DNA from: Anaerobium acetethylicum
Lineage (GTDB): Bacteria; Bacillota; Clostridia; Lachnospirales; Lachnospiraceae
Reading direction: 5' to 3'
Length of the DNA: 64,000 bases
Assembly (NCBI RefSeq): GCF_900096945.1
Contig: NZ_FMKA01000009.1
Coordinates: forward strand, 62,001-126,000
Positions 2-60,687 of this stretch are shown in pieces. Position numbers and translations under genes: made by a program. The first letter of the stretch is position 1, and every line of letters begins with the position of its first letter. The notes under the pieces are model-generated. The model made no database searches, was not told where the DNA came from, and saw only the letters and a list, made by a program, of their open reading frames with translations.

Positions 2-388
2 ATATGGCACTACTGGGGCTATCTGTCGGTCATCTATCTGGCAGCATTAAGGCAGACGCCTACGGATCAGGTGGAAGCGGCAAGGGTGGATGGATGCAAT
101 GCATGGCAGGTGTTCAGATATGTATACTTTCCAAGCATGAAATCCACATTCAAGCTCATGTACGTAATGATAATCATTTTCTCATTCCTGGCATTCGATT
201 ATATCAAGCTTCTGACGGGAGGCGGTCCCGCACACAGCACTGAAGTTCTGGGAACATATGCATATACCTTTGCATTCTCTGCGCTGCAGGTAGGCAAGGC
301 ATCAGCGGTAGGTCTGTTCATGAGTTTCTTCGGGATGATTGCATCCGTTATCTATACGAAATTAAGTAAAAACGAGGAAATAGCATAA
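2..388 (+). CDS. Sugar ABC transporter permease, MalF type (5' truncated by window edge)
   Basis: This is the C-terminal part of a binding-protein-dependent sugar permease, an inner-membrane channel subunit of a CUT1-type ABC importer. The reading frame is open from base 2, so the gene starts outside the window. The visible part carries the EAA loop (EAARVDGCNAWQVF, encoded around 71-112), which docks on the ATPase subunit. A hydrophobic segment (MIIIFSFLAF), the typical LLTGGGPAHST stretch and a final membrane helix follow. The second permease begins 17 nt downstream behind a strong AAGGAGG site. The substrate-binding protein and probably a regulator should lie upstream of the window. The family assignment is firm; the substrate cannot be read from this fragment. 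Confidence 0.9.
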   Translation: MWHYWGYLSVIYLAALRQTPTDQVEAARVDGCNAWQVFRYVYFPSMKSTFKLMYVMIIIFSFLAFDYIKLLTGGGPAHSTEVLGTYAYTFAFSALQVGKASAVGLFMSFFGMIASVIYTKLSKNEEIA

Positions 389-405
389 AGGAGGTTCAGA
401 TAACA

Positions 406-1245
406 ATGGTTTCAACAAAAGGGAAAAAAGTAAGAAAAAATATATCCACACATCTGGTACTGATATTCATATCATGCATTTCGCTTGGACCGATACTGCT
501 GGTAGTACTGAACAGCTTTAAATCTCATGCTGAGATTGTAAGGAATCCTTTGTCGCTGCCGACTGTTTTTCATTTCGAAAACTATGTAACAGCCTGGGAA
601 ACAGGAAAATTTTCGACAGGATTCATCAACAGCATGATTCTGTCAGGAATAACTATAATAATCGTTTTGATAGCAGCATCGCTAGCGGGATACGTTCTTG
701 CCGGAAAGAGGATAAAGGGAAGTGACGGTGTCCTTGTTTATTTCATGATGGCGATGACCGTACCGATCCAGCTGTTCCTGTTTCCTCTCTATTATGCGAT
801 GGCGAGCTTGGATCTGATCGGTAATATTCCGGCAGTCAGCCTGATTCTTTCAGCAACAAGCATGCCTTTGGCAGTGTTCCTCATGAGGACTTTTTTTCTG
901 AATGTTCCAAGGGAACTGGAAGAAGCGGCAAGAATCGATGGAGCTTCCACGTGGCAGGTGATCTGGCACGTAATGAGACCTGTTGTTTCGCCAGGCCTCA
1001 TAACTGTAGCTGTAATTGTAGGCCTGCAGTCATGGAATGAATATCTTATTACATCTACGTTTTTACAGGGAGAGGATTCGTTCACGGCTACATTGGGATT
1101 CTTATCTATGAATGGAACTTATTCGTCTGATCAGGCCATATTGATGGCAGCAGCGGTTATTATGATTGCCCCGATCGTTATTTTCTTTGTTTGTATACAG
1201 AAATATTTTGTGGACGGTATGGCAAGTGGAGCGGTAAAAGGCTGA
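406..1245 (+). CDS. Sugar ABC transporter permease, MalG type
   Basis: This is a 279-residue inner-membrane permease of the CUT1 family and the partner of the preceding MalF-type subunit. It has a short basic N-terminus, a first membrane helix at about residues 15-35, several further helices, and the conserved EAA loop (EEAARIDGASTWQVIW, about residues 170-185). The start at 406 is supported by AAAGGAGGT at 387-395. No dedicated ATPase gene follows, as is usual for CUT1 systems that share an MsmX-like ATPase encoded elsewhere. The TGA stop lies inside a truncated MITE-like repeat (1241-1302). The genes that follow suggest a ribosylated or nucleoside-like substrate, but that is inference. Confidence 0.93.
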   Translation: MVSTKGKKVRKNISTHLVLIFISCISLGPILLVVLNSFKSHAEIVRNPLSLPTVFHFENYVTAWETGKFSTGFINSMILSGITIIIVLIAASLAGYVLAGKRIKGSDGVLVYFMMAMTVPIQLFLFPLYYAMASLDLIGNIPAVSLILSATSMPLAVFLMRTFFLNVPRELEEAARIDGASTWQVIWHVMRPVVSPGLITVAVIVGLQSWNEYLITSTFLQGEDSFTATLGFLSMNGTYSSDQAILMAAAVIMIAPIVIFFVCIQKYFVDGMASGAVKG

Positions 1246-1302
1246 TTTTGAAATTTGTGTGCATCTTATGTGACTATGAAGGACATAGTCCTGAATAGCT
1301 GC
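1241..1302 (+). repeat. Right-hand fragment of the 143-bp MITE-like element (copy D)
   Basis: The sequence matches the right half of the full elements at 53939-54081 and 63159-63301. It includes the GTGCATC block and the subterminal hairpin GTGACTAT-GA-AGGAC-ATA-GTCCT-GA-ATAGCTGC (1270-1302). The left half is missing. The stop codon of the upstream permease (1243-1245) falls inside the fragment, so insertion or deletion of the element may have reshaped the 3' end of that gene. Confidence 0.75.
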
Positions 1303-1327
1303 AAAAGATTAATGAAAGAGGTGTGGA

Positions 1328-3442
1328 ATGAAGGATTATAGTGAGAAGATTTATGCAGGTGTGTTAGGTAAAATTCTGGGCGTATATTTAGGAAGACCGG
1401 TGGAAGGCTGGACATATGAAAAAATCGACAGCACATTCGGCGAAGTATATAATTTCAAGAATCATAAGACTGGAGCACCTCTCATTGTACCCGATGATGA
1501 TATTTCAGGAACGTTTGTATTTTACAGGGCATTGGAAGATAACGGATATGATTTGGAATTGACAGCCAGGCAGATTGGCGACACTTGGCTGAACTATGTG
1601 ATTGAAGACAAGACCATTCTCTGGTGGGGCGGCCTTTCAAGAAGTTCCGAGCATACAGCATATTTGAGGCTAAAAGAAGGCGTTGAGGCTCCAGAGAGCG
1701 GATCAGTTGAGCTAAACGGTGAGAGCATGGCTGAGCAGATAGGAGCGCAGATATTTATTGACACATGGGCGCTTGTAAACCCGAATAATCCAGAGAGGAC
1801 AGCTGATCTGGCAAGAAAGGCGGCTAGTGTAAGCCACGGCGGAATCGCGATAGAAGCAGCCGTATTCCTGGCAGTCATGGAATCACTGGCTTTTGAGGAA
1901 AATGATATAGACAGACTGATTGATGAAGCGGTTAAATACGTAAAGGATGACAGGCTGACAGTATTGATAGAGGAAGTGCGCAAGGTATGCGCTGAAGCGG
2001 ATGACTGGCACGAAGTAAGGGAATGGATAGAAAAAAACCACGGATATGAAAAATACGCGGGAAGCTGCCCGATGGTCACAAATCACCTGGCAGTCATGAT
2101 GGCTCTGTTAATGGGTGGAGACGACTACAATAAATCAATCATGATAGCTACAAGTGCAGGCTGGGATACAGACTGCAACGCAGGCAATGTTGGGTGCCTG
2201 AATGGTATAAGGCTTGGACTTGAAGGATTCGGGACAGGAGCAGATTTAAGAAAAGCAGTTGCAGACAGAATGTATGTGGTAAGTGCAGATGGCGGATCAT
2301 GTATTTCGGACGCGGTACTCGAAACCAGAAAGCTGATAAAAGCCTGCGCAGCTTTGAACGGAGAGGAAGCGAAGCTTCCGGATAAAAGATATTCCTTTGA
2401 ATATAAGGGCTCTGTACAGGGATTCGTACCATACAATAATGATATGGAAGATCAGGTACTTACAGGGATTGAAAATGCCTATGAAAAATATAGACAAACA
2501 GGGCTTGTATTAAGCTATGAGGGCTTGGCCAAAGGAACAAGGGCAGCGGCCTGTATCGATACATTTATCGACCTGAAGCCCAAGGGAAAAGACGGCACAA
2601 GCTATTTCGACGTGCTGTGTTCCCCGACCCTTTATGGCACTCAGGAAGTGGAAGCAGAAATTATCGGTTTATACGATGAAAACCCTGATTTAAGATTCTT
2701 TATAGATTACTTCGATGAGAACGATGAACTGCAGTCAGTTTTTTTAGATCCTGCAATGATTGGAAAGGGAAGAAATGTCATCCGGTTCACAGTGCCGGAT
2801 ACCATGGGACATCCAATCTACCAGCTGGGAATGGAACTGACATGCAGCGGCCGCAGGATGGATGGAGACATTATCCTGAAGACATTGGACTGGTCAGATG
2901 CACCAAAGAATTTCAGGATGGGAATGGCAATGGAGCTTACACCGTCGCTCACACCATGGACAACGACGACGGCATGGATGAAGATGTTCATGAGCTCGGC
3001 AAAGAATTTTGCACCAGACTATACGACCACCATATCTCTTTCACATCCTGAAAAGAACGGTATTGTCACACTGGGTACACATGACTGGAAAAACTATTCC
3101 GTTTCATCAAAAATCACATTCTCTTATCAGGAAGGCGCAGGAATCGTAGCCAGGTCAAAAGGCCATAACAGGTATTATGGGGCAATTCTGAAAGACGGCA
3201 AGGCAATGATCGTGAAGAAAAAGGACCGGGATGTAATAGAGCTTGGCTCAGAAGATTTCAAATATATGGCTGAGGATGTCCATGAAATCAGATTTGATTT
3301 AAAAGACAGCAGCCTGACAATGTACATCGATGGAAAGGAATTCGTGAAAGCGACTGATGACGAATATAAATCAGGCGGAGCGGGGGTTGTTGTAGACAGA
3401 GGCTGCATCCTTGCGGATGGATTGGAAATAAAAAGAAACTAA
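1328..3442 (+). CDS. ADP-ribosylglycohydrolase-family protein with C-terminal accessory domain (paralogue 1)
   Basis: The protein has 704 residues and no signal peptide, so it should be cytoplasmic. Residues 1-330 are an ADP-ribosylglycohydrolase (ARH/DraG) fold. The metal-binding motif DDDISGT lies at 56-62 and the second metal motif GWDTDCNAGN at 278-287. Known family members cleave N- or O-glycosidic bonds to ribose using two Mg2+ ions. Residues from about 350 onward form a beta-rich extension; its last 170 residues read like a concanavalin/laminin-G-type sandwich (GIVARSKGHNRYYGAIL, then LTMYIDGKEF), as in DUF1080-like sugar-binding domains. Family hydrolases are usually near 300 residues, so this is a large fusion. 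A close paralogue follows 14 nt downstream. Substrate unknown; a ribosylated small molecule delivered by the upstream transporter is plausible. Confidence 0.85.
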   Translation: MKDYSEKIYAGVLGKILGVYLGRPVEGWTYEKIDSTFGEVYNFKNHKTGAPLIVPDDDISGTFVFYRALEDNGYDLELTARQIGDTWLNYVIEDKTILWWGGLSRSSEHTAYLRLKEGVEAPESGSVELNGESMAEQIGAQIFIDTWALVNPNNPERTADLARKAASVSHGGIAIEAAVFLAVMESLAFEENDIDRLIDEAVKYVKDDRLTVLIEEVRKVCAEADDWHEVREWIEKNHGYEKYAGSCPMVTNHLAVMMALLMGGDDYNKSIMIATSAGWDTDCNAGNVGCLNGIRLGLEGFGTGADLRKAVADRMYVVSADGGSCISDAVLETRKLIKACAALNGEEAKLPDKRYSFEYKGSVQGFVPYNNDMEDQVLTGIENAYEKYRQTGLVLSYEGLAKGTRAAACIDTFIDLKPKGKDGTSYFDVLCSPTLYGTQEVEAEIIGLYDENPDLRFFIDYFDENDELQSVFLDPAMIGKGRNVIRFTVPDTMGHPIYQLGMELTCSGRRMDGDIILKTLDWSDAPKNFRMGMAMELTPSLTPWTTTTAWMKMFMSSAKNFAPDYTTTISLSHPEKNGIVTLGTHDWKNYSVSSKITFSYQEGAGIVARSKGHNRYYGAILKDGKAMIVKKKDRDVIELGSEDFKYMAEDVHEIRFDLKDSSLTMYIDGKEFVKATDDEYKSGGAGVVVDRGCILADGLEIKRN

Positions 3443-3456
3443 AAAGGAGTCTTGAC

Positions 3457-5544
3457 ATGTCGGTATTAGAATATAGAGAACAGATTTATGCAGGCGTTTT
3501 AGGAAAGTTAATCGGAGTCTATCTGGGAAGGCCCATAGAGGGCTGGTCATACGAAAAAATCACCGAAGAGTTCGGAGATATTAAATACTATGTACACGAA
3601 AAATTAGGACTTCCTCTTATAGTTGCAGATGATGATATTTCGGGAACGTTCGGTTTTTTCAGAGCATTGGAAGACAATGGATACAAAAATATTACCGCAA
3701 AAGATTTTGGGAATACGTGGCTCAATTATATTATTGAGGACAAGACGATCCTGTGGTGGGGAGGTCTGGGAAGATCGACTGAGCATACGGCATTTCTGAA
3801 TCTGAAAAACGGCATAGATGCTCCAATGAGCGGTTCCGTTGAACAGAACGGAAAAACCCTTGCTGAACAGATTGGCGCACAGATATTCATTGATGCAATA
3901 GCCATGGCATGTCCGAATAATCCGGATATGGCCGTCGACCTGGTAAGGAAAGCAGCAAGTGTGAGCCACGGGGGACTGGCTTTAGATGCAGCCTGTCATC
4001 TGGCGGCGCTGGAAGCAATGGCCTTCGAAGAAAAGGACATTGACGTGCTTCTTGACAGGGCACAAAAGTATATAAAAAATGAAGAACTTATCCGCATCAT
4101 CGCCGATGTCAGAAGGATATGCAGCGAGGAGAAGGACTGGAGAAGGGTCAGGGATTACCTGAATCCGAAATACGGCTATGACGTGTATCCGGGATGTTGT
4201 CATATGGTCCCGAATCATGCGATGGTAATTGCATCGATTATCCTGGGCGGTGACGACTTCCAGAAGTCAATTAGCATAGCGACAAGCGCAGCATGGGATA
4301 CAGACTGCAACGCAGGCAACGTAGGTGCATTTAATGGGATCAGGCTCGGTCTTGATGGAATCGATGCGGGAGCTGATTTTAGGACTCCGGTATCGGATCT
4401 CATGTATGTGGTGGCGTCGGATGGCGGTTCGGTAGTAACTGACGCAGTAACGGAGGCAGACAGGATTTTAAAAGCGGCTGCAGAATTAAGCGACGAAGAA
4501 ATTACGATTCCTACTGGAAAATATACCTTTGCATACAGGGGCTCGACACAGGGGTTCGCAATCTGCGAATATGAAGGCGGTTCACAAAATACTGTGAGCA
4601 TACGTAATGGAAACGAAGACGGGGGAATGAACGGACTCGCGATCAAATGCAGCCAGCTGGCTGCAGGAGTAACGGGGAACATTTCAACTCCTACATTTAT
4701 TGATATGAACAGGTTGCAGGCAAACTTCTCTACGATAGCTTCCCCTACCCTTTATTCCTCGCAGATTGTGAAGACAAGAATCAAAAAGTCGGATGACAGT
4801 GAAGTTTTTATGAGGAAGTACATTTTATATTATGACATAAACAATGATGTACAAGCTTTATATTCCGATTATAAGGAACTAAAAGCAGGGATGAACAGTC
4901 TGGAATGGAAAGTTCCGGATACTGGCGGAATGGCAATATTCAAACTAGGTTATGAGGTGAGCTGTAGGAGACGGTATGACGGCGAACTTGTCATTCTGGA
5001 CATCGACTGGAAAGGCGCTCCATCGGATTTTGCCCAAAAGGGAATGCTGATGACCTCCATATGGAATACAAACCCTTTTTGGATTCGAAGCTTTGCAAGC
5101 TCAGCAAAGCAGTTTGCGGCAGATTTCAAGAGGACATACTGTATTTCTCATGTGGAAGCGGACGGACTGGTTACAATCGGTTCAAGAGAATGGGATGACT
5201 ATTCGGTAAGCTCGACCTTGTACTTTTCGCTCCATAAAAACGGGGGTCTCGTACTCAGAAGCAGAGGCCATAAACGCTATTACGGAGCCGTGCTTTCTGA
5301 ATTCAGGGAAGCAGTCATTTATAGGAAAAAAGACAGGGAAACAACAATTTTAGCAAGGGTTCCTTATAAATACCAGGAAGATGAAGGCTATGAAGCTGTT
5401 TTCAAAGCAGAAGGAGACAGGCTTGAATTCTATGTGAACGGCAGCCTGGCAGTTTCTACACAGGATAGTGAGTACAGAAGCGGTGGAGCGGGATTCGTCA
5501 TTTCGGAAGGGACGATGACAGCGGACAGCCTGATTATCAGCTAA
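3457..5544 (+). CDS. ADP-ribosylglycohydrolase-family protein with C-terminal accessory domain (paralogue 2)
   Basis: A 695-residue cytoplasmic paralogue of the preceding protein with the same architecture. The N-terminal ARH/DraG fold has DDDISGT at 58-64 and AWDTDCNAGN at 279-288. A beta-rich linker follows, and a C-terminal sandwich domain contains GGLVLRSRGHKRYYGAVL and a final GGAGFVISEG block. The N-terminal halves are far more alike than the middle sections. This suggests an old duplication in which the hydrolase core was kept and the substrate-recognition part diverged. The start follows AAAAAGGAG at 3442-3450. Both copies keep the metal-binding aspartates, so both are probably active. 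Whether they act on different substrates or anomers is not visible. Confidence 0.85.
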   Translation: MSVLEYREQIYAGVLGKLIGVYLGRPIEGWSYEKITEEFGDIKYYVHEKLGLPLIVADDDISGTFGFFRALEDNGYKNITAKDFGNTWLNYIIEDKTILWWGGLGRSTEHTAFLNLKNGIDAPMSGSVEQNGKTLAEQIGAQIFIDAIAMACPNNPDMAVDLVRKAASVSHGGLALDAACHLAALEAMAFEEKDIDVLLDRAQKYIKNEELIRIIADVRRICSEEKDWRRVRDYLNPKYGYDVYPGCCHMVPNHAMVIASIILGGDDFQKSISIATSAAWDTDCNAGNVGAFNGIRLGLDGIDAGADFRTPVSDLMYVVASDGGSVVTDAVTEADRILKAAAELSDEEITIPTGKYTFAYRGSTQGFAICEYEGGSQNTVSIRNGNEDGGMNGLAIKCSQLAAGVTGNISTPTFIDMNRLQANFSTIASPTLYSSQIVKTRIKKSDDSEVFMRKYILYYDINNDVQALYSDYKELKAGMNSLEWKVPDTGGMAIFKLGYEVSCRRRYDGELVILDIDWKGAPSDFAQKGMLMTSIWNTNPFWIRSFASSAKQFAADFKRTYCISHVEADGLVTIGSREWDDYSVSSTLYFSLHKNGGLVLRSRGHKRYYGAVLSEFREAVIYRKKDRETTILARVPYKYQEDEGYEAVFKAEGDRLEFYVNGSLAVSTQDSEYRSGGAGFVISEGTMTADSLIIS

Positions 5545-5557
5545 GGAGAGAGAGAAA

Positions 5558-6472
5558 ATGGATTATGTTGTAGGTTCGACAGCAGTTACGGATGAGCTGC
5601 ATTTCCCGGACGGGAAAGTGATGAACAACCTGGCAGGCGGAGCCGGAATATATGCGCTGGCCGGAATCAGGCTCTGGTGCGACAGTGTGGAAATCGTAAC
5701 CGGCGTGGGTGAAGATTATGCGGATATCTACGGTGACTGGTACAAAAAGAACAATCTATCAATGAATGGACTTAGGGTAAGAGCTGAAAAGACCCCTCAT
5801 AATGTCATAACCTATTTTGAAGACGGCGAAAGGGACGAAGTGCCGCTTTACGGAGCGGACCATTACCTGTCAGTTGAAGCAAGACCTGAAGATCTTGAAG
5901 GATACTTTGAAACATCGAAAGGAATCTATATTTTTAAGAACAGCAACAGCGCATTCTGGGACAGGATTCTGGAAATGAAGAAGCGCGGGAATGCCAGGGT
6001 GATGTGGGAAATTGCAAGTGATGCAGCCACTTTCGAAAACAAGGATGAGGTAAAGAAAATAGCAGGGCAGATAGACGTGTTTTCAATCAACAGAACGGAA
6101 GCTTTTAGCCTTCTGAAGACAAATGACATGGGAGAGGTCATTGAGGAATTCAAAAAGTGGAACATACCTCTGATATTCCTGAGACGGGGAAAAGATGGCG
6201 CATACATGATTGCGGGAGGGGGAGTGTTCGAAGCCCTGAGCCTTAAAGATATCAGCGTCGTGGATGCCACGGGAGGCGGAAACAGCTCTTCGGCAGCTGT
6301 CCTCTATGGATTTTGCGAAGGCAGGAGCCCGCTGGAAGCAGGGCTGATGGGAAGCATTTCAGCTGCCATGTGCCTTGCACAGTACGGGGTTCCGGCTGTT
6401 ATAGACAGCCAGATGAGGCATCATGCAAATGATCTGCTGAAAAAAATGATGGAAGAAATAGGGAGGAAATAA
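5558..6472 (+). CDS. PfkB-family carbohydrate kinase with variant GGGN motif
   Basis: A 304-residue ribokinase/PfkB-fold protein, expected to phosphorylate a sugar or sugar derivative with ATP in the cytoplasm. The N-terminal part has the glycine-rich substrate strand (NNLAGGAGIYALAGI, about 24-38). The C-terminal signature reads DATGGGNSSSAAVLYGF where the family consensus is D(T)xGAGD. The residue aligned with the catalytic Asp is therefore Asn. Such GGGN/GCGN variants exist in some PfkB subfamilies, so loss of activity should not be assumed. The gene sits 13 nt after the second glycohydrolase and 1 nt before the SIS gene. Kinase plus SIS deglycase/isomerase is the arrangement seen in Amadori-product (FrlD/FrlB-type) pathways, which gives one hypothesis for its role. 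Confidence 0.85.
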   Translation: MDYVVGSTAVTDELHFPDGKVMNNLAGGAGIYALAGIRLWCDSVEIVTGVGEDYADIYGDWYKKNNLSMNGLRVRAEKTPHNVITYFEDGERDEVPLYGADHYLSVEARPEDLEGYFETSKGIYIFKNSNSAFWDRILEMKKRGNARVMWEIASDAATFENKDEVKKIAGQIDVFSINRTEAFSLLKTNDMGEVIEEFKKWNIPLIFLRRGKDGAYMIAGGGVFEALSLKDISVVDATGGGNSSSAAVLYGFCEGRSPLEAGLMGSISAAMCLAQYGVPAVIDSQMRHHANDLLKKMMEEIGRK

Positions 6473-6473
6473 A

Positions 6474-7610
6474 ATGAGCAAATTTGACAATGCGATGAGA
6501 AGGCAGGTATTCAGCCTTCCTGAGCTGATAAAACAGCAGTATGAAGATCTGGAACCGAAAACAAGGAAAGTGCTGACTACACCTGAAATATTTTCAGCAC
6601 AGAGGATTGTGCTGGTAGGATGCGGCGATTCCTATGCGGCTGCAATGGCGGCAAAGAATATTTTTGAACTCCTGACAGGAATCCCTACGGAAGTGGTGAC
6701 AGCCCTTGAATTAAGCAGATATTATGACAGGAAACAATTGGGATTTTCTCCATTAAATCCGCTGGTCATTGCTGTAAGCAATTCGGGAGGAGTCGCAAGG
6801 GTTGCTGAAGCAGTGCAGAGGGCAAAAAAATACGGTGCTTTCGTACTCGGAGTCACAGGAAATGTGGAATCGCTTCTGGCAAAATCATCAGACAGGATTC
6901 TGAAACTGGATATCCCGTCTTTTGAATCCGCGCCTGGAATAAGGTCTTACATGGTGTCGGTAATGTCTCTTCTGCTTCTTGCAATCAGAATCGGAGAAGT
7001 CAGGGGTAGATATACCATGGACCAGGCAATGGATTACAGATACGACATTGCAAGCCAGGCAGATGAGCTCGGGAAGCTACTGCCGGAAATGGATGAAAAG
7101 ATGGAAGTGGTTTCAAAACAATGGAAGGATTTTCCGGCATTTGACTTCGTAGGAGCAGGATTCGATTATGCGGCAGCATGGTTTGGCCAGGCGAAAATCC
7201 TGGAGGCAACGGGAAAATTTGCGATGCATATCAATTCTGAAGAGTGGTTCCACCTGAATTTCTTTGCAAGAAAAGCGAAAGAAATCGGAACTGTAATCGT
7301 GGCAAATACGACAAATCCGGCAGACAGCAGAAACAAGGAACTTGTATATTATGCAAATAAACTTGGAAGGCCGATGATTGTCATCACAGATGGCGGGAAA
7401 GAGGATTTTGAAGTTGACACTACTTATATAAAAGTGCCAAAGACAAAATACCAGATCACGATGCCTCTGACGCAGTATGCACCAACCTGCCTTCTGGCTG
7501 GATACATCTCAGAAATGACAGGTGAAGAGTATGGAAGAGGCTGCAAGGACGAATGGTCATTTGCCGAGGGCGGCGCATGCGTGCAGAACAGCAAGATAAT
7601 CGTAGAATAA
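6474..7610 (+). CDS. Two-domain SIS sugar isomerase/deglycase (GlmS-C/FrlB-like)
   Basis: A 378-residue protein with two sugar-isomerase (SIS) domains, as in the isomerase half of GlmS and in FrlB-type deglycases. The first domain carries VLVGCGDSYAAAMAAKNIF and the typical VSNSGGVARVAEAV phosphosugar-binding loop. The second contains FVGAGFDYAAAWFGQAKILE and INSEEWFHLNFF. There is no glutaminase domain, so it does not make glucosamine-6-phosphate from glutamine. It starts 1 nt after the PfkB gene stop, with GGGAGG upstream, so the two are probably translationally coupled. The expected chemistry is isomerisation or deglycation of the phosphorylated product of the neighbouring kinase. The exact sugar is unknown. 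Confidence 0.85.
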   Translation: MSKFDNAMRRQVFSLPELIKQQYEDLEPKTRKVLTTPEIFSAQRIVLVGCGDSYAAAMAAKNIFELLTGIPTEVVTALELSRYYDRKQLGFSPLNPLVIAVSNSGGVARVAEAVQRAKKYGAFVLGVTGNVESLLAKSSDRILKLDIPSFESAPGIRSYMVSVMSLLLLAIRIGEVRGRYTMDQAMDYRYDIASQADELGKLLPEMDEKMEVVSKQWKDFPAFDFVGAGFDYAAAWFGQAKILEATGKFAMHINSEEWFHLNFFARKAKEIGTVIVANTTNPADSRNKELVYYANKLGRPMIVITDGGKEDFEVDTTYIKVPKTKYQITMPLTQYAPTCLLAGYISEMTGEEYGRGCKDEWSFAEGGACVQNSKIIVE

Positions 7611-7637
7611 GAGGCGGTACAGACGGAGGAAAAAAAT

Positions 7638-8042
7638 ATGTTGAAAAAATTTCAGATACAGACAAAATTCAATGAGGTATACGATATTACGGCGGATGTG
7701 AAAAAATTCGTTGAGGAAAGCAAGGTCGAGAGCGGTTTATGTCTCGTATATAATCCGCATTCGACTGCCGGAATGACAATTACTTCATTCTGGGATCCTA
7801 AGGGATTTGATGATCTACAGGACGAGCTCTGCAGACTGATTCCTACAAGAGTGGACTTCAAGCACCAGCATGATACGCCACAGGATGCGGCAGGACATGT
7901 GAAGTCCTCATTATTAGGGGTTTCCCTTCCGTTCATAGTCGAAGACGGAAAGCTTCTCGTAGGCGGATCCCAGGGGATTTTCTTCGTCGAATTCGACGGA
8001 CCGAGAAACAGGGAATATTATGTGAAAATAATGGCTGATTAA
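7638..8042 (+). CDS. YjbQ/UPF0047 family protein
   Basis: A 134-residue protein of the YjbQ (UPF0047, TIGR00149) family, a small single-domain trimeric fold of unclear physiological role. Some members show weak thiamine-phosphate-synthase activity in vitro. It has the family's conserved polar residues in YNPHSTAGMTI (about 36-46), the HQHDTPQDAAGHVKSS block (about 76-91) and the GGSQGIFFVEFDGPR C-terminal strand. The length is normal for the family. It lies inside the glycohydrolase/kinase/SIS cluster, so a role as an anomerase, lactonase or phosphatase-like accessory enzyme for the imported sugar would fit, but nothing in the sequence proves it. Confidence 0.85.
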   Translation: MLKKFQIQTKFNEVYDITADVKKFVEESKVESGLCLVYNPHSTAGMTITSFWDPKGFDDLQDELCRLIPTRVDFKHQHDTPQDAAGHVKSSLLGVSLPFIVEDGKLLVGGSQGIFFVEFDGPRNREYYVKIMAD

Positions 8043-8066
8043 CAGGAAGAAATGGAGTGTAATGGA

Positions 8067-9020
8067 ATGGACAAGAAGAAAATCATATTAGACTGCGATC
8101 CTGGAATGGATGATTCAATGGCCATAGTCATGGCCTGCAAATCTGAAAAACTGGATGTCAAAGCAATTACGACAGTGAATGGAAACTACCCTGTAGAGGT
8201 GACTTACGTAAATGCAAGGAAAGTGCTTGAGATGGTAGGACGTACTGATATCCCGGTAGGTAAAGGGATGGGAATACCGATGGTAAGGGATGTTCCAAAA
8301 GATCCTTTCACACATGGAAAAGACGGGCAGGCGGAGAATTTCCTTCCGGAACCGAAAATGCCGTTAAGCGAAAAACACGCAGTCGACCTGATCATCGATA
8401 CCGTAAAGGAAAACGCAGGGGACATTTATCTGATAGTAACCGGACCAATGACCAACATTGCCATGGCTATGAGAAAAGCGCCGGAAATCAAGGATATGAT
8501 TTCTGGAATCTATGCAATATCAGGGGCTTTCGGACTCAATAAATATGCATTTGCAAATGCGACGGGAGATACCCCGCAGAGCGAATGGAACGTGTATGTG
8601 GATCCTGAAGCTGCGGAAATCGTGTATAATTCCGGCGTGAAGCTTGTCGCTCTGGGCCTGGATGTAGCGACACACTTTGATGTCAACCTGACAGACAGCG
8701 ATATGGAAGCCTTGAAAAATAGCAACAACAAGGAATCGAAATTCCTTCTCCAGGCAATCAGCTTTGTAAACGGCAGAGGGTTTGAAGCATACTGCACTGT
8801 AATCGACTGTATGGCAGTGGGCTATGCAATCGATCCGACTTTAGTCGAAACGATTACGGGAAGAGTAGGAATTGAAACAGAAGGAAAACTAACTTTGGGA
8901 AATACGGTTCTGGATAGCAGGCATCACCACGTGTGGGAGAACCTTCCGGAAATTGAGATAGGTGCAAAGGCTGATTGCGGTAGATTTTTAAATCTCCTGA
9001 TGGATCTTGTTCTTGCATAA
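8067..9020 (+). CDS. Inosine/uridine-preferring nucleoside hydrolase family protein
   Basis: A nucleoside hydrolase (IunH/RihA-C fold) that splits the N-glycosidic bond of nucleosides to ribose and free base in the cytoplasm. The calcium-binding signature LDCDPGMDDSMA lies at residues 8-19, and the VTGPMTNIAMA loop is in mid-protein. I place the start at 8067 because GGAG at 8054-8057 has proper spacing to it; an in-frame ATG at 8052 would have a ribosome site too close. That gives 317 residues, normal for the family. It is followed closely by the deoxyribosyltransferase gene. Base preference cannot be read from sequence alone. Confidence 0.9.
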   Translation: MDKKKIILDCDPGMDDSMAIVMACKSEKLDVKAITTVNGNYPVEVTYVNARKVLEMVGRTDIPVGKGMGIPMVRDVPKDPFTHGKDGQAENFLPEPKMPLSEKHAVDLIIDTVKENAGDIYLIVTGPMTNIAMAMRKAPEIKDMISGIYAISGAFGLNKYAFANATGDTPQSEWNVYVDPEAAEIVYNSGVKLVALGLDVATHFDVNLTDSDMEALKNSNNKESKFLLQAISFVNGRGFEAYCTVIDCMAVGYAIDPTLVETITGRVGIETEGKLTLGNTVLDSRHHHVWENLPEIEIGAKADCGRFLNLLMDLVLA

Positions 9021-9033
9021 AGGAGGAAATGAA

Positions 9034-10125
9034 ATGTTTAGAAATGAAAGTATCTATATAGCAGGGCCGGAATGCTTCTACACCGGAGGGAATGAAATAT
9101 TGAACGCAATGAGAAGAAGGTCTGAATCTTTCGGATTTTCCGTGACACTGCCGAACGATGACTCTCTTGATCTGAGCCATGAGGATCTACGAAAGAACGC
9201 GGATGAGATTTTTGAAAACTGTGCCAAGAGCATGAATGAATCCACAGCTATAATCGTTGACCTGGAGGCTTTCAGGGGTTCCGAGCCGGATAACGGAAGC
9301 ATCTATGAAATAGGAATGGCTTATGCAAGGGGCATCAGATGCTATGGCTACACAAGGGACAAGAGGAATGTTCTCTGGAAAAACCAAGGCGCGAAACTGG
9401 TTGACGGCATCGTATACGATGAGTCGGGACGGATTCATCCTTATGCTGACCTGCCTTTTGCCCCTTCCGTTATCGGCTCTACCAAGGTTGTGGAGGGCGA
9501 TTTTGATGACTGCCTGAAAATGATGATGATTGATATTGAGGAAGAATATAAAGAAAGTGCAAAACGCTCAGAATATATCGATCACTCAAATAAAACAACG
9601 AAAGCAGAGAGTGACAGACTTTTGGTATATCTCTCCGGCCCTGCAAGATATGACATGGACGGAGAAAGAAAGTATGGCATCATGAAAGAGATATGCAGGA
9701 AATACGGATTTGATGCGGTCTCCCCATTAGATATGGCAGACGGGGTAGAAAAGATTGCAACCGATAACCCCTATATAAGAGCTGCGAATGAATTCGACAA
9801 CTATCAGCAGCATGTGCGGAACTGCGATATCATCATAGCGGACCTGAATGATTTCAGAGGCTGGGAATCCTGCAATGATACCGGATTTGAATGCGGCATG
9901 GCATTCCAGCTGGGCAAGAAGATGTATGGCTATATGGACGATACGACCATCATGAAGAAAAGAATTCCGAATTATGGGGAAGAAGCTGGAAACAGGGACA
10001 TGTGCGGAAGCAATGTAGAGAACTTTGATTATCCTGTCAATCTGATGTTCGCATCTTCAATGAAGATTTTTGAAGGCAGCTTTGAAAATGTAATAAGCAG
10101 AATTGCAGAAGATATAAAAAAATAA
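9034..10125 (+). CDS. Tandem two-domain nucleoside 2-deoxyribosyltransferase-like protein
   Basis: A 363-residue protein made of two consecutive nucleoside 2-deoxyribosyltransferase-like domains, each with the Rossmann-like start I/LxxxGP. Domain 1 (about 1-150) has IYIAGPECFYTGG and, near residue 90, DNGSIYEIGMAYARG. Domain 2 (about 195-363) has LVYLSGPARYDMDG and DTGFECGMAFQLG. In characterised enzymes the Glu of this second motif is the nucleophile; it is present in both domains. Single-domain enzymes of about 150 residues assemble as oligomers, so a covalent tandem is unusual. The start at 9034 is set by AGGAGG at 9021-9026; an in-frame ATG at 9007 lies inside the previous gene. The role would be base exchange or hydrolysis of (deoxy)nucleosides. 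Confidence 0.82.
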   Translation: MFRNESIYIAGPECFYTGGNEILNAMRRRSESFGFSVTLPNDDSLDLSHEDLRKNADEIFENCAKSMNESTAIIVDLEAFRGSEPDNGSIYEIGMAYARGIRCYGYTRDKRNVLWKNQGAKLVDGIVYDESGRIHPYADLPFAPSVIGSTKVVEGDFDDCLKMMMIDIEEEYKESAKRSEYIDHSNKTTKAESDRLLVYLSGPARYDMDGERKYGIMKEICRKYGFDAVSPLDMADGVEKIATDNPYIRAANEFDNYQQHVRNCDIIIADLNDFRGWESCNDTGFECGMAFQLGKKMYGYMDDTTIMKKRIPNYGEEAGNRDMCGSNVENFDYPVNLMFASSMKIFEGSFENVISRIAEDIKK

Positions 10126-10136
10126 GGAGGCCGTTT

Positions 10137-10985
10137 ATGAATCCTGTTTATGAAAAATTACAGAATTGTTTAAAAAGTATAGAAAACAAAGTGAATTTCA
10201 AGCCTCAGATGGCCATTATACTTGGTTCGGGCCTGGGGGATTATGCAGAAGAAATAGAAATTAAGGCGACGCTTGACTATAAGGACATCGATGGCTTCCC
10301 TGTATCGACCGTTGCAGGGCATAATGGAAGATTTATCTTTGGATACGTCAACAAGGTGCCTGTGGTGATCATGCAGGGAAGGGTTCATTATTATGAGGGT
10401 TATCCCATGTCTGATGTGGTGCTTCCGACAAGGCTGATGGGAATGATGGGTGCAAAAGTTCTCTTTCTGACGAATGCTGCCGGCGGTGCAAACCCGGATT
10501 TTGGTCCGGGAGACTTCATGCTGATCAGAGACCAGATTGCCAGCTTTGTACCATGTCCGCTGATTGGAAAAAACATAGACGAACTGGGCCCCCGATTTCC
10601 TGATATGAGTGAAATCTACGATATGGATTTAAGGAACATCATTCAAGATACCGCAAACGAGCTGGAAATCCCGCTACAGGAAGGCGTATACATTCAGCTC
10701 ACCGGACCGAATTATGAATCACCGGCTGAAATCAGGATGTGCCGTGCCATCGGAGCCGATGCTGTCGGGATGAGCACTGCTTGTGAAGCTATTGCGGCTA
10801 ATCATATGGGTATGAGGATCTGCGGTATTTCATGTATATCAAACCTCGCCGCAGGCTTAAGCGAAACTCCGTTAAGCCATGTGGAGGTGCAGGAGACGGC
10901 CGACAGGGTTGCACCATTATTCAAGAAACTGATTACCGGATCAATTATACGAATCGCAGAAAACCTGCAAACAGAAAATCGTTAG
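10137..10985 (+). CDS. punA: Purine nucleoside phosphorylase (trimeric class)
   Basis: A 282-residue purine nucleoside phosphorylase converting purine nucleosides plus phosphate to (deoxy)ribose-1-phosphate and base. Class signatures are visible in order: the phosphate loop ILGSGLGDY (about 28-36), MQGRVHYYEGY (about 80-90), TNAAGGANPDFGPGD, LTGPNYESPAEIR and the VGMSTACEAI strand. The SNLAAG segment carries the Asn typical of enzymes specific for hypoxanthine and guanine nucleosides. A strong AAGGAGG precedes the ATG. The phosphopentomutase that uses its ribose-1-phosphate lies 57 nt downstream, so the two form a standard salvage pair. Confidence 0.95.
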   Translation: MNPVYEKLQNCLKSIENKVNFKPQMAIILGSGLGDYAEEIEIKATLDYKDIDGFPVSTVAGHNGRFIFGYVNKVPVVIMQGRVHYYEGYPMSDVVLPTRLMGMMGAKVLFLTNAAGGANPDFGPGDFMLIRDQIASFVPCPLIGKNIDELGPRFPDMSEIYDMDLRNIIQDTANELEIPLQEGVYIQLTGPNYESPAEIRMCRAIGADAVGMSTACEAIAANHMGMRICGISCISNLAAGLSETPLSHVEVQETADRVAPLFKKLITGSIIRIAENLQTENR

Positions 10986-11042
10986 GTATTGATGGAATGT
11001 CAGATACTTGCAGGAAGCAGCAAAAAGATAAGGAGTGGAAGC

Positions 11043-12194
11043 ATGGCTAAAAGAGTTTTTTTAATAGTCCTTGACAGCGTGGGAATCGGTGAAATGCCGG
11101 ACGCCTTCGAGTATGGTGATGAAGGGAGTAATACCCTGAAAGCATCGTCGACAAGCGTGCATTTTTCAATGCCAAACATGAAACGTCTTGGATTATTCAA
11201 TATTGACGGTGTTAACATTGGTGAAAAGGTGGAAAGGCCTGAAGCGTCATTTGCCAGGATGACGGAAAAATCAAAAGGCAAGGATACCACAATAGGCCAT
11301 TGGGAAATCGCCGGCGTCATTTATCCAAAGCCGCTGCCGACATATCCTGAAGGATTTCCAAAGGAGATCCTGGATGAATTCAGAAGGCTTACGGGACGAG
11401 GAATCCTTTGTAATCTTCCTTATTCCGGAACATCAGTAATCGACGATTTCGGGGAAGAGCATATGAAGACTGGGAATCTTATCGTCTATACTTCGGCGGA
11501 TTCGGTTTTCCAGGTAGCCGCCCATGAAGGCATTGTCCCAATCGAGGAACAGTACCGATACTGCCAGATAGCAAGGAAACTTCTGACTGGCGAACATGGG
11601 GTCGGCAGAGTGATTGCCAGACCATTCATCGGAGAACCGGGTAACTTCAGGAGGACAGGAAACAGACATGACTTTTCCCTGCAGCCTCCCAAAATCACAA
11701 TGCTTGACCAGCTTTCGGAGGAAGGCTTCGACGTCATAAGCGTCGGAAAAATCATCGACATTTTCGCTGAAAAAGGAATCACGGAATATGTGAGAACGGC
11801 TGGCAACGAGGAAGGGGTGGACAGGACTGTCGAATACATGGACAGGGATTTCGAGGGGCTTTGCTTCACGAATCTGGTAGACTTCGACATGCTGTACGGT
11901 CACAGGAACGATATAGACGGTTATGCGAAAGCGCTGACTTATTTTGATGACCGCCTTCTGGAAATACTGGATAAAATGAGGGATGATGATATTCTCATGG
12001 TGACGGCAGACCACGGATGTGACCCCATGACTATATCCACTGACCATTCCAGGGAGTATACGCCTCTCGTGATGTTCGGGAAGAATGCTGGAAGCAGAAA
12101 TTATGGAACAAGGGATACATTTGCCGATATCGGAGCAACGGTGCTGAAGTATTTTGGAATTGTCCCCAAAATCGACGGAACATCTATCATCTGA
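11043..12194 (+). CDS. deoB: Phosphopentomutase
   Basis: An alkaline-phosphatase-superfamily enzyme interconverting (deoxy)ribose-1-phosphate and -5-phosphate with two Mn2+ ions. It begins MAKRVFLIVLDSVGIGEMPDA, containing the first metal aspartate and the DSVGIG signature. It retains DTTIGHWE, the DFDMLYGHRND block and the metal-binding TADHGCDP near the C-terminus. I chose the ATG at 11043 because AAGGAGTGG (about 11029-11037) precedes it and the protein then starts at the conserved strand; an in-frame ATG at 10989 would add 18 unrelated residues. The 383-residue length is usual. It passes punA-derived sugar phosphate to the pentose-phosphate pool. Confidence 0.95.
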   Translation: MAKRVFLIVLDSVGIGEMPDAFEYGDEGSNTLKASSTSVHFSMPNMKRLGLFNIDGVNIGEKVERPEASFARMTEKSKGKDTTIGHWEIAGVIYPKPLPTYPEGFPKEILDEFRRLTGRGILCNLPYSGTSVIDDFGEEHMKTGNLIVYTSADSVFQVAAHEGIVPIEEQYRYCQIARKLLTGEHGVGRVIARPFIGEPGNFRRTGNRHDFSLQPPKITMLDQLSEEGFDVISVGKIIDIFAEKGITEYVRTAGNEEGVDRTVEYMDRDFEGLCFTNLVDFDMLYGHRNDIDGYAKALTYFDDRLLEILDKMRDDDILMVTADHGCDPMTISTDHSREYTPLVMFGKNAGSRNYGTRDTFADIGATVLKYFGIVPKIDGTSII

Positions 12195-12349
12195 TGTAAA
12201 GAAGATGAATATCTGCGGTATTTGATCTTTTGTTATAATAGCCCTTTTGTGGAGCGGTTCAGTAATTCGAGCCGTTCCGGCAATGGGGCTAAAAAAATAA
12301 CTTTTAATTGGGATTTTAACGGCTATAAGCCTGGGAAGGAGCTGTATCA
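12195..12349 (+). promoter_or_regulatory. Leader region upstream of adenine deaminase with -10-like element and hairpin
   Basis: A 155-nt gap in an otherwise tight gene cluster. It contains TATAAT-like sequence near 12235 without a convincing -35 partner. It also contains an imperfect inverted repeat, GGAGCGG at 12250-12256 with CCGTTCC downstream (one G-U pair), and then an A/T-rich run to the AAGGAG site at 12336. It could be an internal promoter with a structured 5' leader. It does not show the conserved core of the purine (guanine/adenine) riboswitch, which I looked for because of the downstream gene. Confidence 0.35.
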
Positions 12350-14068
12350 ATGGATTATAAAAATTACCCTGCCATGTCGCAAGTGGCAAGGGGAATGGGA
12401 AAAGCGGACCTGGTCCTAAAAAACGGAAACGTGCTGAACGTATTTACAGAGGAATTCCACGAAGCGGATATCGCTATCTGCGGAGGAACAATCGTGGGTG
12501 TAGGCTCCTATTCTGGGAATAGGGAGATAGACATGAGAGGAAAATATGTGGTGCCAGGTTTCGTGGACAGCCATCTGCACCTGGAATCAACCCTGGTGCA
12601 GCCATTTGAACTGATAAATGAAGCCCTTAAATATGGAACCACGACTTTTGTGGTGGATCCTCATGAGTCTGCCAATGTGGCAGGTCTCGATGGAATAGAT
12701 TATATACTAGACCAGACTTCTGATGTGGCCGCAAATGTATTCGTGATGGTGCCCTCCTGCGTTCCGGCAGCACCGTTCGAGGATAACGGCTATATTCTGA
12801 ATCCGGGAGAAATGAAAAAATACCTTGAAAATGAGCGGATTCTGGGTCTCGGGGAAGTGATGGACTGCCCTGCCGTAATTACCGGCGACAGTGTCATGAT
12901 GGAAAAACTGGACATGTTCCAACCAAAGATTCTGGATGGCCACGCACCATTTCTGAATGACGGAGATCTTGCAGCGTATGCACTTGCGGGAATCAAAACA
13001 GATCATGAGTGCTGCGATTATGAATATGCTAAAAAGGAAATTGGAAATGGCATTTACGTGCTCATAAGGGAGGGCAGCGCTGCAAAGAATCTGGAAGCAA
13101 TCGTAAAGGGTATCGTATCTGAACATGCATCGACAGAGCGGTACTGTTTCTGTACGGATGACAAGCATATTGAAGAAATAAAAAAGGACGGCCACATAAG
13201 CTTTAACGTAAAAAAAGCGGTAAGTCTGGGTATTCCACCTCAAAAAGCCCTGAAAATGGCAAGCTGGCAGGCAACCGTTTGCTACGGAATGAAGAATCTT
13301 GGTGCGATTGCACCAGGTTATCAGGCAGATGTTGTGGTTCTGGATGATCTTGAAAACATCCGGGTCGCTGATGTATTCCATAAAGGCATGAATATAAAGG
13401 AATACAGCGCCAAAGGACGGATTCCATGTCCAGAAAACATCAAGCATACAGTCCAGGTAAAAGATTTTAATAGGAAAAAGCTGGAGATAGAAACCGGTGA
13501 AAAGGAGTTTCCGGTAATTGAAATAATACCAGGGCAGATTGTTACTAAGAAAGTATTCGAAAAGTTGCCAGCCAAAGACGGGATCTTTATATCGGATAAT
13601 ATTTACAGCAAGATAGCTGTTGTGGAAAGGCATAAAGGAACCGGAAAGGTAGGGGTTGGGGTGCTCAAAGGATTCGGTATAAGGAATGGGGCAATTGCAT
13701 CAAGTGTGTCCCATGATTCCCATAATATAATTGTAGTTGGCGACAATGATGACGATATGGTTGCCGCTGTCAACGAGCTGATAGAAAAACAGGGTGGCTA
13801 TACCATAATCAGCGGAGGGAAATCAGCCGGTACCCTGCCGCTTCCAGTTATGGGGCTTATGAGCGATGCAGGACATGAGGAGGTTGAAGAGAAATTGAAA
13901 ACCATGATTTCAAAAGCATGGGAGATGGGTGTGAATCCTAAAATCGATACCTTTATAAATCTGTCCTTCATGGCATTGCCTGTGATACCTGAAATCAGGA
14001 TAACTGCAAGGGGAATCTATGATGTTGCGGAAAATGTCTTTTACGGGAAGGACGGGCAGGCGAAATAA
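12350..14068 (+). CDS. ade: Adenine deaminase
   Basis: A 572-residue amidohydrolase-superfamily enzyme converting adenine to hypoxanthine plus ammonia. Visible features are the N-terminal urease-like beta strands (VLKNGNVLNVFT), the metal-binding SHLHLEST motif near residue 80, DPHESANVAG, the GLGEVMDCPAVI strand, HAPFL, and CFCTDDKH. The C-terminal domain includes ASSVSHDSHNIIVVGDND, typical of the Ade family. The length matches the family. AAGGAG at 12336-12341 precedes the start. It overlaps the next gene by one nucleotide (TAATG). In this cluster it would process the adenine released by the upstream nucleoside-cleaving enzymes. Confidence 0.95.
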   Translation: MDYKNYPAMSQVARGMGKADLVLKNGNVLNVFTEEFHEADIAICGGTIVGVGSYSGNREIDMRGKYVVPGFVDSHLHLESTLVQPFELINEALKYGTTTFVVDPHESANVAGLDGIDYILDQTSDVAANVFVMVPSCVPAAPFEDNGYILNPGEMKKYLENERILGLGEVMDCPAVITGDSVMMEKLDMFQPKILDGHAPFLNDGDLAAYALAGIKTDHECCDYEYAKKEIGNGIYVLIREGSAAKNLEAIVKGIVSEHASTERYCFCTDDKHIEEIKKDGHISFNVKKAVSLGIPPQKALKMASWQATVCYGMKNLGAIAPGYQADVVVLDDLENIRVADVFHKGMNIKEYSAKGRIPCPENIKHTVQVKDFNRKKLEIETGEKEFPVIEIIPGQIVTKKVFEKLPAKDGIFISDNIYSKIAVVERHKGTGKVGVGVLKGFGIRNGAIASSVSHDSHNIIVVGDNDDDMVAAVNELIEKQGGYTIISGGKSAGTLPLPVMGLMSDAGHEEVEEKLKTMISKAWEMGVNPKIDTFINLSFMALPVIPEIRITARGIYDVAENVFYGKDGQAK

Positions 14069-14721
14069 TGAGAAATGACAGGATGAAAATAATCAGCTGC
14101 CTCAAAAGAGCGGCAGCATATATTCTTGGAGTATGGATCCTGGCCCTGGGCCAGAGAATGTTTGTAGTGGCTTGCTTTGGAGCAGGCTCCCTGGATGCTT
14201 TCTGCGTAGGGCTGGCGGATAGGACGGCTTTGACAGCTGGCCAGTGGGTTGCTGTTTCGGCGTTTGTAATGATGCTGATATCAGCAGTGCTGCTTCGGAG
14301 GAAGCCTGATTTTCTGGTGCTGCTGTCTTCTTACATTTTTGGTTTGTTTTTCGATTTCTGGGGCGGGATCCTCGCGGAGATGTTTGGCCCGATGGGATTC
14401 CTCATGAGGCTGATTGTATACTTTGCAGCATTGCTGCTTGCGCCTTTCGGTACAGCCGTATATTTCAGCTCGAATTTTTCAAAGAGTGCTTTTGATGAAT
14501 TCATAATGGCTGTTAAGGAAAGGTTCAATCTGTCGGTGAGAAAAGCAAAAATAATAGTAGATGTAATTTTCTGCATTCTGGCATTCGTTGTGGGAGGACC
14601 TCTTGGACCTGCCACTGTCATAACAGCAGCTCTCTTCGGTCCTATATTGCAGGGTTTCATGGAGATACATTACAAGGCACGTCTTAGAAAGAAGCTGGAA
14701 GCGAGCATCCATGTGAAATAA
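14068..14721 (+). CDS. YczE/YitT-like integral membrane protein
   Basis: A 217-residue polytopic membrane protein with about five hydrophobic helices. A YczE/YyaS-type signature runs from GQRMFVVACFGAGSLDAFCVGLADRT in the first third to the GGPLGPATVITAALFGPILQ segment near the end. The family has no established transport function. The start codon overlaps the adenine deaminase stop (TAATG), so the two are probably translated together. A purine or sugar-related transport role is suggested only by that position. It ends just before an inverted MITE fragment that separates it from a convergent gene pair. Confidence 0.8.
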   Translation: MRNDRMKIISCLKRAAAYILGVWILALGQRMFVVACFGAGSLDAFCVGLADRTALTAGQWVAVSAFVMMLISAVLLRRKPDFLVLLSSYIFGLFFDFWGGILAEMFGPMGFLMRLIVYFAALLLAPFGTAVYFSSNFSKSAFDEFIMAVKERFNLSVRKAKIIVDVIFCILAFVVGGPLGPATVITAALFGPILQGFMEIHYKARLRKKLEASIHVK

Positions 14722-14792: not shown

Positions 14793-15329
14793 TCAGTCCA
14801 TGTTTTTTGCATTTTCGTACATCTTTTCAACTTCTTCCCTGGACATGATCTTTGAGAGTATGTATGCGATTAAGATGATGCCGGGGATATCAATCAGAAG
14901 CCTCGCAATGGCGAAACGGCTGCCCAGGGATCCCATTTCGAAAAGGAACATAGGAATTTTTGTGGTCGACCATGCACCGATAAAAATAAGGATATTGCTG
15001 AACTTCACCCCTTTTTTCATAAATACGGCAGCGACCGGGAAGGCTCCATACAAAGGGCCAGCGGCTGCAGAACCGATAAAAAAGGCAAGGAGGATTCCTT
15101 TCAAACCGGAACCTTCGCCCATGTATCTGACCATAGTCTCACGGGGTACCCAGATGTCCAGGAGACCTAAGAGAATGAATACGGGAGGAATGATCAGGAG
15201 CATTTCGCCTATTGAATTGAGGGATATGCCAAGGGCCTTTGTGCCCAGATCGTAATTGATCGCGGTAAGTAGCAGCATTGCAATCAGAACGATAAGAAAA
15301 CCGCGGTATCTTTTTAATATTTTTTTCAT
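14793..15329 (-). CDS. Permease half-protein, DUF318/YraQ-like (second half)
   Basis: A 178-residue integral membrane protein with about five helices, from MKKILKRYRGFLIVLIAMLL through IPPVFILLGLLDIWVPRETMVRYMG to a hydrophilic lysine/glutamate-rich C-terminus. The repeated small-residue segment FFIGSAAAGPLYGAFPVAAVFMKKG resembles the IPGFVAFPMAALLVENGA segment of the adjacent gene product. The two proteins thus look like the halves of one permease of the DUF318/YraQ superfamily, encoded separately and 2 nt apart. Their start is preceded by GGTGGTG. The substrate is unknown; some relatives handle metals or arsenicals, which is not demonstrated here. Confidence 0.75.
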   Translation of the reverse strand: MKKILKRYRGFLIVLIAMLLLTAINYDLGTKALGISLNSIGEMLLIIPPVFILLGLLDIWVPRETMVRYMGEGSGLKGILLAFFIGSAAAGPLYGAFPVAAVFMKKGVKFSNILIFIGAWSTTKIPMFLFEMGSLGSRFAIARLLIDIPGIILIAYILSKIMSREEVEKMYENAKNMD

Positions 15330-15331
15330 GA

Positions 15332-60672: not shown

Positions 60673-60687
60673 AAAGGAATGCACAAG

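Follow-up and report, generated by a model that had tools for sequence, protein, structure and literature searches.

The locus described here is a co-directional gene run at positions 2-14721 of the window, the window being the whole analysed stretch of 64,000 nucleotides from Anaerobium acetethylicum (NZ_FMKA01000009.1; contig C22 of genome G000, positions 62001-126000; G, C and L numbers are our labels for genomes, contigs and loci). The first-pass annotation had listed its genes and proposed that together they import a ribosylated compound and recover sugar phosphate and base. All of the listed genes were found on the + strand, and their families were confirmed with Pfam and NCBIfam profiles.

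2-388, + strand: CUT1 permease 1, 3' part (PF00528, E 3e-15; gene start at contig position 61525)
406-1245, + strand: CUT1 permease 2 (PF00528, E 1e-23)
1328-3442, + strand: ARH1, an ARH-family domain with a C-terminal CBM66-like lectin domain (PF03747, E 5e-52)
3457-5544, + strand: ARH2, an ARH1 paralogue (49% identical) of the same architecture (PF03747, E 1e-50)
5558-6472, + strand: PfkB-family kinase (PF00294, E 5e-19; below every equivalog cut-off)
6474-7610, + strand: SIS protein, GlmS-isomerase-like (PF01380, E 2e-21)
7638-8042, + strand: YjbQ/UPF0047 protein (TIGR00149, 117 bits; cut-off 67.75)
8052-9020, + strand: IU-type nucleoside hydrolase (NH), HD motif changed to ID (PF01156, E 5e-80)
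9034-10125, + strand: NDT2, with a double nucleoside-deoxyribosyltransferase domain (two PF05014 stretches)
10137-10985, + strand: punA, purine nucleoside phosphorylase of housekeeping type (NF006054, 357 bits; cut-off 218)
11043-12194, + strand: deoB, phosphopentomutase of housekeeping type (NF003766, 530 bits; cut-off 256)
12350-14068, + strand: ade, adenine deaminase (TIGR01178, 572 bits; cut-off 472.5)
14068-14721, + strand: YitT-like membrane protein (PF02588, below cut-off)

The left edge of the window cuts an operon, and the upstream genes were read in locus L012. On contig C22 these are LacI (58412-59455), a solute-binding protein (60007-61392) and permease 1 (61525-62388); LacI and SBP_bac_1 family membership was confirmed for the first two, which are separated by about 550 bp. 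The earlier description of a single run holds for the gene set and not for the start of the operon, since LacI, the solute-binding protein and permease 1 all begin before the window.

Gene order was compared by tblastn of the window genes against the fetched loci. The order LacI-solute-binding protein-permease 1-permease 2-ARH1-ARH2-PfkB-X-SIS-YjbQ-NH-NDT2 was colinear in L013 and in G046 (L059/L060), G170 (contig 35, L061) and G398 (L063), G046 and G398 belonging to one genus; the window differs from this order only in lacking gene X. The first-pass annotation had proposed a search for co-occurrence in other Clostridia, and the ARH-importer-PfkB-SIS-YjbQ-NH-NDT2 order is kept in these four other loci. 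NDT2 is followed by a ribokinase-like gene in three of them (below the ribokinase cut-off in L013, 229 of 300 bits) and by deoD, above its cut-off, in L061. Variant arrangements were found in L065 (a single ARH, SIS preceding X and deoD closing the run), L097 (a large ARH and a small one, with a YitT homologue inside), L014 (two runs) and L062 (reduced to LacI, importer, ARH1, NH and NDT2). A 5-formyltetrahydrofolate cyclo-ligase family protein (L097:7923-8669) lies within the ARH1-PfkB-X-SIS run of L097.

In the 397 family genomes that were searched, ARH1 was found in 14 (E<=1e-60), SIS in ten (E<=1e-50) and NDT2 in eight (E<=1e-30). Every one of the eight NDT2 genomes belongs to the set of 18 in which ARH1 or SIS is present (hypergeometric 3e-12, ignoring relatedness), and in seven of them NDT2 lies <=10 kb from one of these genes; in G290 it is on a separate contig. 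In a phylum sample (n=338), SIS at E<=1e-45 was restricted to this genome and ARH2 at E<=1e-60 was present in six genomes, G510 among them.

Comparison of the upstream regions pointed to an 18-bp palindrome, TGATAAATNNATTTATCA; a search for a CG-centred LacI operator gave no common site. In 16 loci (279,802 bases) the palindrome was matched 2, 7, 10 and 16 times at up to 0, 1, 2 and 3 mismatches, against means of 0, 0, 0.17 and 2.4 in 60 dinucleotide shuffles, none of which gave a site at <=1 mismatch. The sites lie in the gap between LacI and the solute-binding protein in the window genome, upstream of LacI in L060, L062, L063, L095 and L123, between LacI and ARH1 as well as upstream of the importer in L062, and between LacI and NH-NDT2 in L096; one 2-mismatch site in L064 is located elsewhere. 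In G290, G186 and G408, all of which are without a large ARH at E<=1e-60, the palindrome stands ahead of NH-NDT2 or of the LacI beside it. On a genome-wide scan (figures for G170 hold among the matches listed, and G408 was judged from its locus), the single site with <=1 mismatch was the one between LacI and the solute-binding protein in G000 and the LacI-NH-NDT2 site in both G290 and G186; G046 and G377 each had one further site, and G398 and G251 each had one elsewhere. At 2 mismatches, ten sites were found in G000 versus three for the reversed control.

Regulators adjoining a site share 39-50% identity with the LacI of the window's operon, and those that were aligned have the same helix-turn-helix; the LacI of L061 is 45% identical, yet has no site. 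The palindrome is probably the LacI operator, and its presence before the ARH/importer genes of some genomes and before NH-NDT2 in others suggests one regulon. In G186 the LacI beside NH-NDT2 (L095:2965-4075) was read as two overlapping frames, a possible frameshift or assembly error.

ARH1 and ARH2 are each of about 700 residues (PF03747, 178 and 174 bits; cut-off 26.2) and contain the motifs PDDDISGT and GWDTDCN. The paired Asp residues of these motifs have a metal role. Asp56, Asp57, Asp58, Asp280, Thr281 and Asp282 were invariant in 24 aligned ARH sequences (the window's two included), which agrees with the earlier remark that the metal motifs are intact. The only solved ARH-type structure matched was the hypothetical protein 1t5j. 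A profile built from the 24 ARH relatives matched levanase CBM66 (E ~5e-7) over the C-terminal ~125 residues, and a Foldseek comparison of the C terminus of the ARH1 model with 4b1m gave a TM by target of 0.68-0.70 (4b1m_A, root-mean-square deviation 1.7 over 125 columns). The model is weak (mean pLDDT 52.7, better in the C-terminal part) and only its C-terminal match was used. By profile and fold match, the C-terminal domain appears to be CBM66-like; CBM66 binds terminal fructofuranose. By-eye inspection of ARH1 gave no evident signal peptide.

The most direct hint that an ARH of this type frees ribose or deoxyribose came from G510, a genome of another family, in which deoC (278 bits, cut-off 117), ribokinase (340 bits, cut-off 300) and a 59% identical ARH2 relative follow one another on one strand (L118:8076-12046), with a ribokinase-ARH2 spacing of 23 bp. 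PfkB genes are weakly enriched near other 700-residue ARHs (5/18 loci versus 1/20 controls). In L070 (G406), a 40% identical ARH adjoins an adenosine deaminase, a nucleoside hydrolase and a BMP importer.

The DxDxxxDD motif of NH is present as DCDPGMDD. The His of the HD motif, which serves in leaving-group activation in IU nucleoside hydrolases, is replaced by Ile in all nine close orthologues (window included), in L065 and in one L014 copy, and is found in three of the 17 aligned hydrolases; RihA and two hydrolases in L063 have this His. Both domains of NDT2 retain, in 8/8 aligned sequences, the Glu that is the catalytic residue of nucleoside deoxyribosyltransferases, and both of its solved matches are nucleoside enzymes. 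Gene X encodes a 304-residue PNP_UDP_1 protein nearest to uridine phosphorylase, below the cut-off (147 of 280 bits); the best 60 of its 63 solved matches are all nucleoside enzymes. It is not located between PfkB and SIS in the window (the rest of this genome was not searched for X).

For the PfkB protein, the best NCBIfam match was ribokinase (38.8 of the 299.65 bits needed) and the fructoselysine kinase FrlD model (NF007321) gave 15.4 bits where 247 are required; the solved relatives are labelled PfkB carbohydrate kinase, sugar kinase, adenosine kinase (3ubo) and ribokinase. In the SIS protein, Glu244 and His260 were invariant in 14/14 sequences. The spacing of 16 residues is that of the catalytic Glu/His pair in GlmS and FraB. 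YjbQ lies directly 3' of SIS in all but one of 14 loci (the window and 13 fetched); the exception is L097, with a YitT homologue 50% identical to the window's YitT-like protein between the two. No functional assignment for YjbQ was found in the titles and abstract openings of the listed papers on it. Two more distant SIS paralogues (27-29% identical) in each of L098 and L099 are without an adjoining YjbQ.

The SIS-YjbQ pair was also found in other surroundings. In L094 and L096 it is accompanied by a different CUT1 importer, a HAD hydrolase, a xylose-isomerase-like TIM barrel, a GntR regulator and a small ARH resembling Escherichia coli YegU; no such small ARH is present in the L095 stretch. 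L098, L099 and L100 contain a BMP-type ABC importer, PfkB and a BtpA-family protein together with several YjbQ domains and two or more SIS genes, and one L098 protein is a fused YjbQ pair; this set is a relative of the module that has no ARH. In G186 a radical-SAM protein (L095:8198-9040) lies between YjbQ and a ribokinase-like gene.

The 3' part of the run gave a different result. punA and deoB each have one hit in this genome at E<=1e-20, and a second copy of ade, 81% identical, was found on contig C25 (L125:14690-16426) with a CUT1 set on the same 20-kb stretch. When punA and deoB were compared in seven other genomes, five of which carry a large ARH at E<=1e-60, the best matches of both lay outside the ARH locus, apart from the G290 deoB described below. 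punA, deoB and ade were rejected as pathway genes, and the place given them in the pathway by the first-pass annotation was not borne out; punA, deoB and ade look like housekeeping salvage genes that became attached in this lineage. In G046 and G398 punA is paired with ade away from the unit, and in G290 deoB (50%) and deoD adjoin LacI-NH-NDT2. A loose link of the unit to purine salvage remains, from ade homologues upstream of LacI in L013 (46%) and about 6 kb before LacI in G251 (37%) and from the nucleoside phosphorylase that closes the unit in L061, L065 and one L014 run. The alternative of separate operons, raised at the outset as fatal to the proposal, applies to punA-deoB-ade relative to the ARH part; it is very improbable for NH-NDT2, which has gene order and a probable operator in common with that part.

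In the window, NDT2 and punA are separated by 11 bp, with AGGAGG preceding punA, and deoB and ade by 155 bp; ade and the YitT-like gene overlap by one base. Opposite-strand open frames begin at 14793, after the run; two adjoining minus-strand membrane proteins, convergent to the operon and by eye like permease halves, occupy 14793-15811. Rfam at the gathering threshold gave no matches in the window, and a promoter and terminator scan of the window was near chance level.

The genes from LacI to NDT2 constitute a catabolic unit that is real and conserved and probably under common regulation; its enzyme families are known, and no paper describing their combination was found among the open-access papers listed. 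An imported ribose- or nucleoside-related substrate is plausible because NH and NDT2 stand in conserved order, the probable operator is common to both groups of genes and deoC, ribokinase and ARH2 form one run in G510. To this extent the earlier proposal of ribosylated-compound import stands, without the role given to punA-deoB-ade. The function that we favour, with a probability of roughly 0.45, is LacI-controlled catabolism of an atypical furanosyl N-riboside yielding ribose or deoxyribose, by which is meant a nucleoside-like compound with a further or unusual ribo- or deoxyribofuranosyl unit.

The compound would be imported intact by the CUT1 system, as its family indicates. ARH1 and ARH2, each with a CBM66-like domain, may then cut a ribofuranosyl-type bond and free ribose or deoxyribose, with which the G510 run is consistent. 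NH, NDT2 and, in relatives, X would cut the remaining N-glycosidic bond; the chemistry of these families is known and the substrate is presumed. PfkB could phosphorylate the freed sugar or glycosylamine, and SIS-YjbQ might convert the product to a central sugar phosphate. Ribose would be passed on by the ribokinase-like protein, by DeoD or by PunA and DeoB, according to the operon end of the lineage. A narrower version would be a hitherto undescribed pathway by which gut Lachnospiraceae break down ribosylated ('disaccharide') nucleosides or furanosyl N-ribosides of a similar kind, the ARHs with their furanose-binding-type module acting as ribofuranosidases and SIS-YjbQ providing a new sugar-phosphate step. 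This version is doubtful; if true, it would offer a testable role for YjbQ and for E. coli yegTUV.

Several results weigh against the N-riboside assignment or its supports. The top solved matches of PfkB bear labels other than nucleoside kinase. G377 has ARH1, NH, NDT2 and the importer, but PfkB, SIS and YjbQ are missing from the stretch that was fetched, and a genome-wide search at E<=1e-50 gave no SIS; the PfkB/SIS-YjbQ step is therefore not obligatory. Loss of the NH His extends to three distant hydrolases with Trp or Phe at that position. The palindrome pattern was derived from the window and L062, which are not independent of it (L060, L063, L095, L096 and L123 are). Among the four colinear relatives a site with <=1 mismatch occurs in G046 only, the L063 site having 2 mismatches; no site was found under 4 mismatches in L013, L061, L065, L014 and L094, or under 3 in L097. 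Genome-wide, <=2 mismatches gave 3-15 sites per genome, many at unrelated places, compared with 0-4 for the backward pattern. For the ARH C-terminal domain, the top Foldseek rank was galactocerebrosidase and many laminin-G and galectin folds also matched; no Pfam family scored above its cut-off, with sub-threshold lectin-type matches only, and a search with the single ARH1 sequence did not reach CBM66. Finally, a nucleoside-type neighbour was present at 3/18 further loci of ~700-residue ARHs (L070, L075 and L076) versus 1/20 controls, the controls being CUT1 loci of the window's genome and deoC not being among the families counted. A nucleoside linkage of 700-residue ARHs in general was rejected on these counts, and the nucleoside theme is a property of the core clade, not of the whole ARH type.

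CUT1 importers usually carry oligosaccharides. This importer type, the CBM66-like domain, the missing HD-motif His of NH and the 15 of 18 other 700-residue ARH loci without a nucleoside-type neighbour among the tested families would all suit a non-nucleoside furanoside oligosaccharide or glycoside as the substrate, with the ARHs as glycosidases and NH and NDT2 as recruited glycoside-cleaving enzymes. We consider this somewhat unlikely, given the recurrence in the units of X, DeoD or PunA, ribokinase-like genes and NDT2, the nucleoside enzymes among the solved matches of NDT2 (2/2) and X (best 60 of 63), and deoC and ribokinase ahead of ARH2 in G510.

A glycated (Amadori-type) nucleoside or ribosylated amine, phosphorylated by PfkB and deglycated by SIS in the manner of FrlD/FrlB while the glycosidases trim the rest, is unlikely. 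The SIS profile search placed GlmS first (E 1e-24) and 3eua, annotated as a fructose-amino-acid deglycase, much lower (E 8e-9), and the PfkB score is far under the fructoselysine kinase cut-off; PfkB is nevertheless immediately 5' of SIS in the window, L065, L098, L099 and L100, the invariant Glu244/His260 pair has the GlmS/deglycase arrangement, and in L098-L100 a BMP importer accompanies twin SIS genes.

Salvage of ADP-ribose, poly(ADP-ribose) or fragments of ADP-ribosylated protein, for example ribosyl-adenosine, is suggested by the ARH family itself, by ade (joined in the window and near the unit in L013 and G251) and by the adenosine deaminase, BMP importer and nucleoside hydrolase of L070. 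It is a distinctly unlikely reading: no phosphatase or nucleotidase is among the annotated core-unit genes (Pfam/NCBIfam), the second ade of this genome lies away from the unit, and 1t5j, the only solved ARH-type match, is a hypothetical protein. That two unrelated units, one for an ARH-processed sugar and one for nucleoside salvage, are merely adjacent holds for punA-deoB-ade and is otherwise very improbable, since the common palindrome, the kept order and the NDT2 distribution tie NH-NDT2 to the ARH and SIS genes.

An oddly assorted gene list is in this way reduced to a single unit that has a defined core and a probable operator, from which the accidental part is set apart. Testable questions are raised about non-ADP-ribose substrates of ARH enzymes, YjbQ beside SIS and the purpose of E. 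coli yegTUV.

Four known systems were compared with the furanosyl N-riboside unit proposed here. Fructosamine pathways of the FrlD/FrlB type likewise pair a PfkB kinase with a two-domain SIS protein having a conserved Glu/His; here, in contrast, PfkB is below the FrlD cut-off, SIS is nearest to GlmS, and additional N-glycosidases and YjbQ are present. Pseudouridine catabolism (psuT-psuK-psuG) resembles the unit in joining import and a PfkB kinase to a glycosidase whose substrate is a modified nucleoside, but no PsuG-type family is among the operon's Pfam/NCBIfam matches, which give ARH, NH and NDT instead. Levanase CBM66 (4b1l, 4b1m and 4azz) is matched in profile and fold by the C-terminal ~125 residues of the ARHs; in levanase the module belongs to a fructanase, which is secreted, whereas here its fusion partner is an ARH with no evident signal peptide.

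Escherichia coli yegTUV with yegW (ggaR) also combines an ARH-family protein and a PfkB kinase in one operon. According to PMC10819704, yegTUV has a predicted nucleoside symporter and, as of 2024, no clear function. It differs in having an MFS nucleoside transporter and a short ARH where the present unit has a CUT1 importer and 700-residue ARHs, and the present unit falls outside the yegTUV type; no SIS, YjbQ, NH or NDT is annotated in its 14-kb stretch. YegU gave two weak matches to 700-residue ARHs (best E 2e-5) and none to the window's ARHs at E<=1e-3, and shares 33-35% identity with the small ARHs that adjoin SIS-YjbQ in L094 and L096. The association of these small YegU-like ARHs with SIS-YjbQ and a GntR regulator offers a lead for the function of yegTUV.

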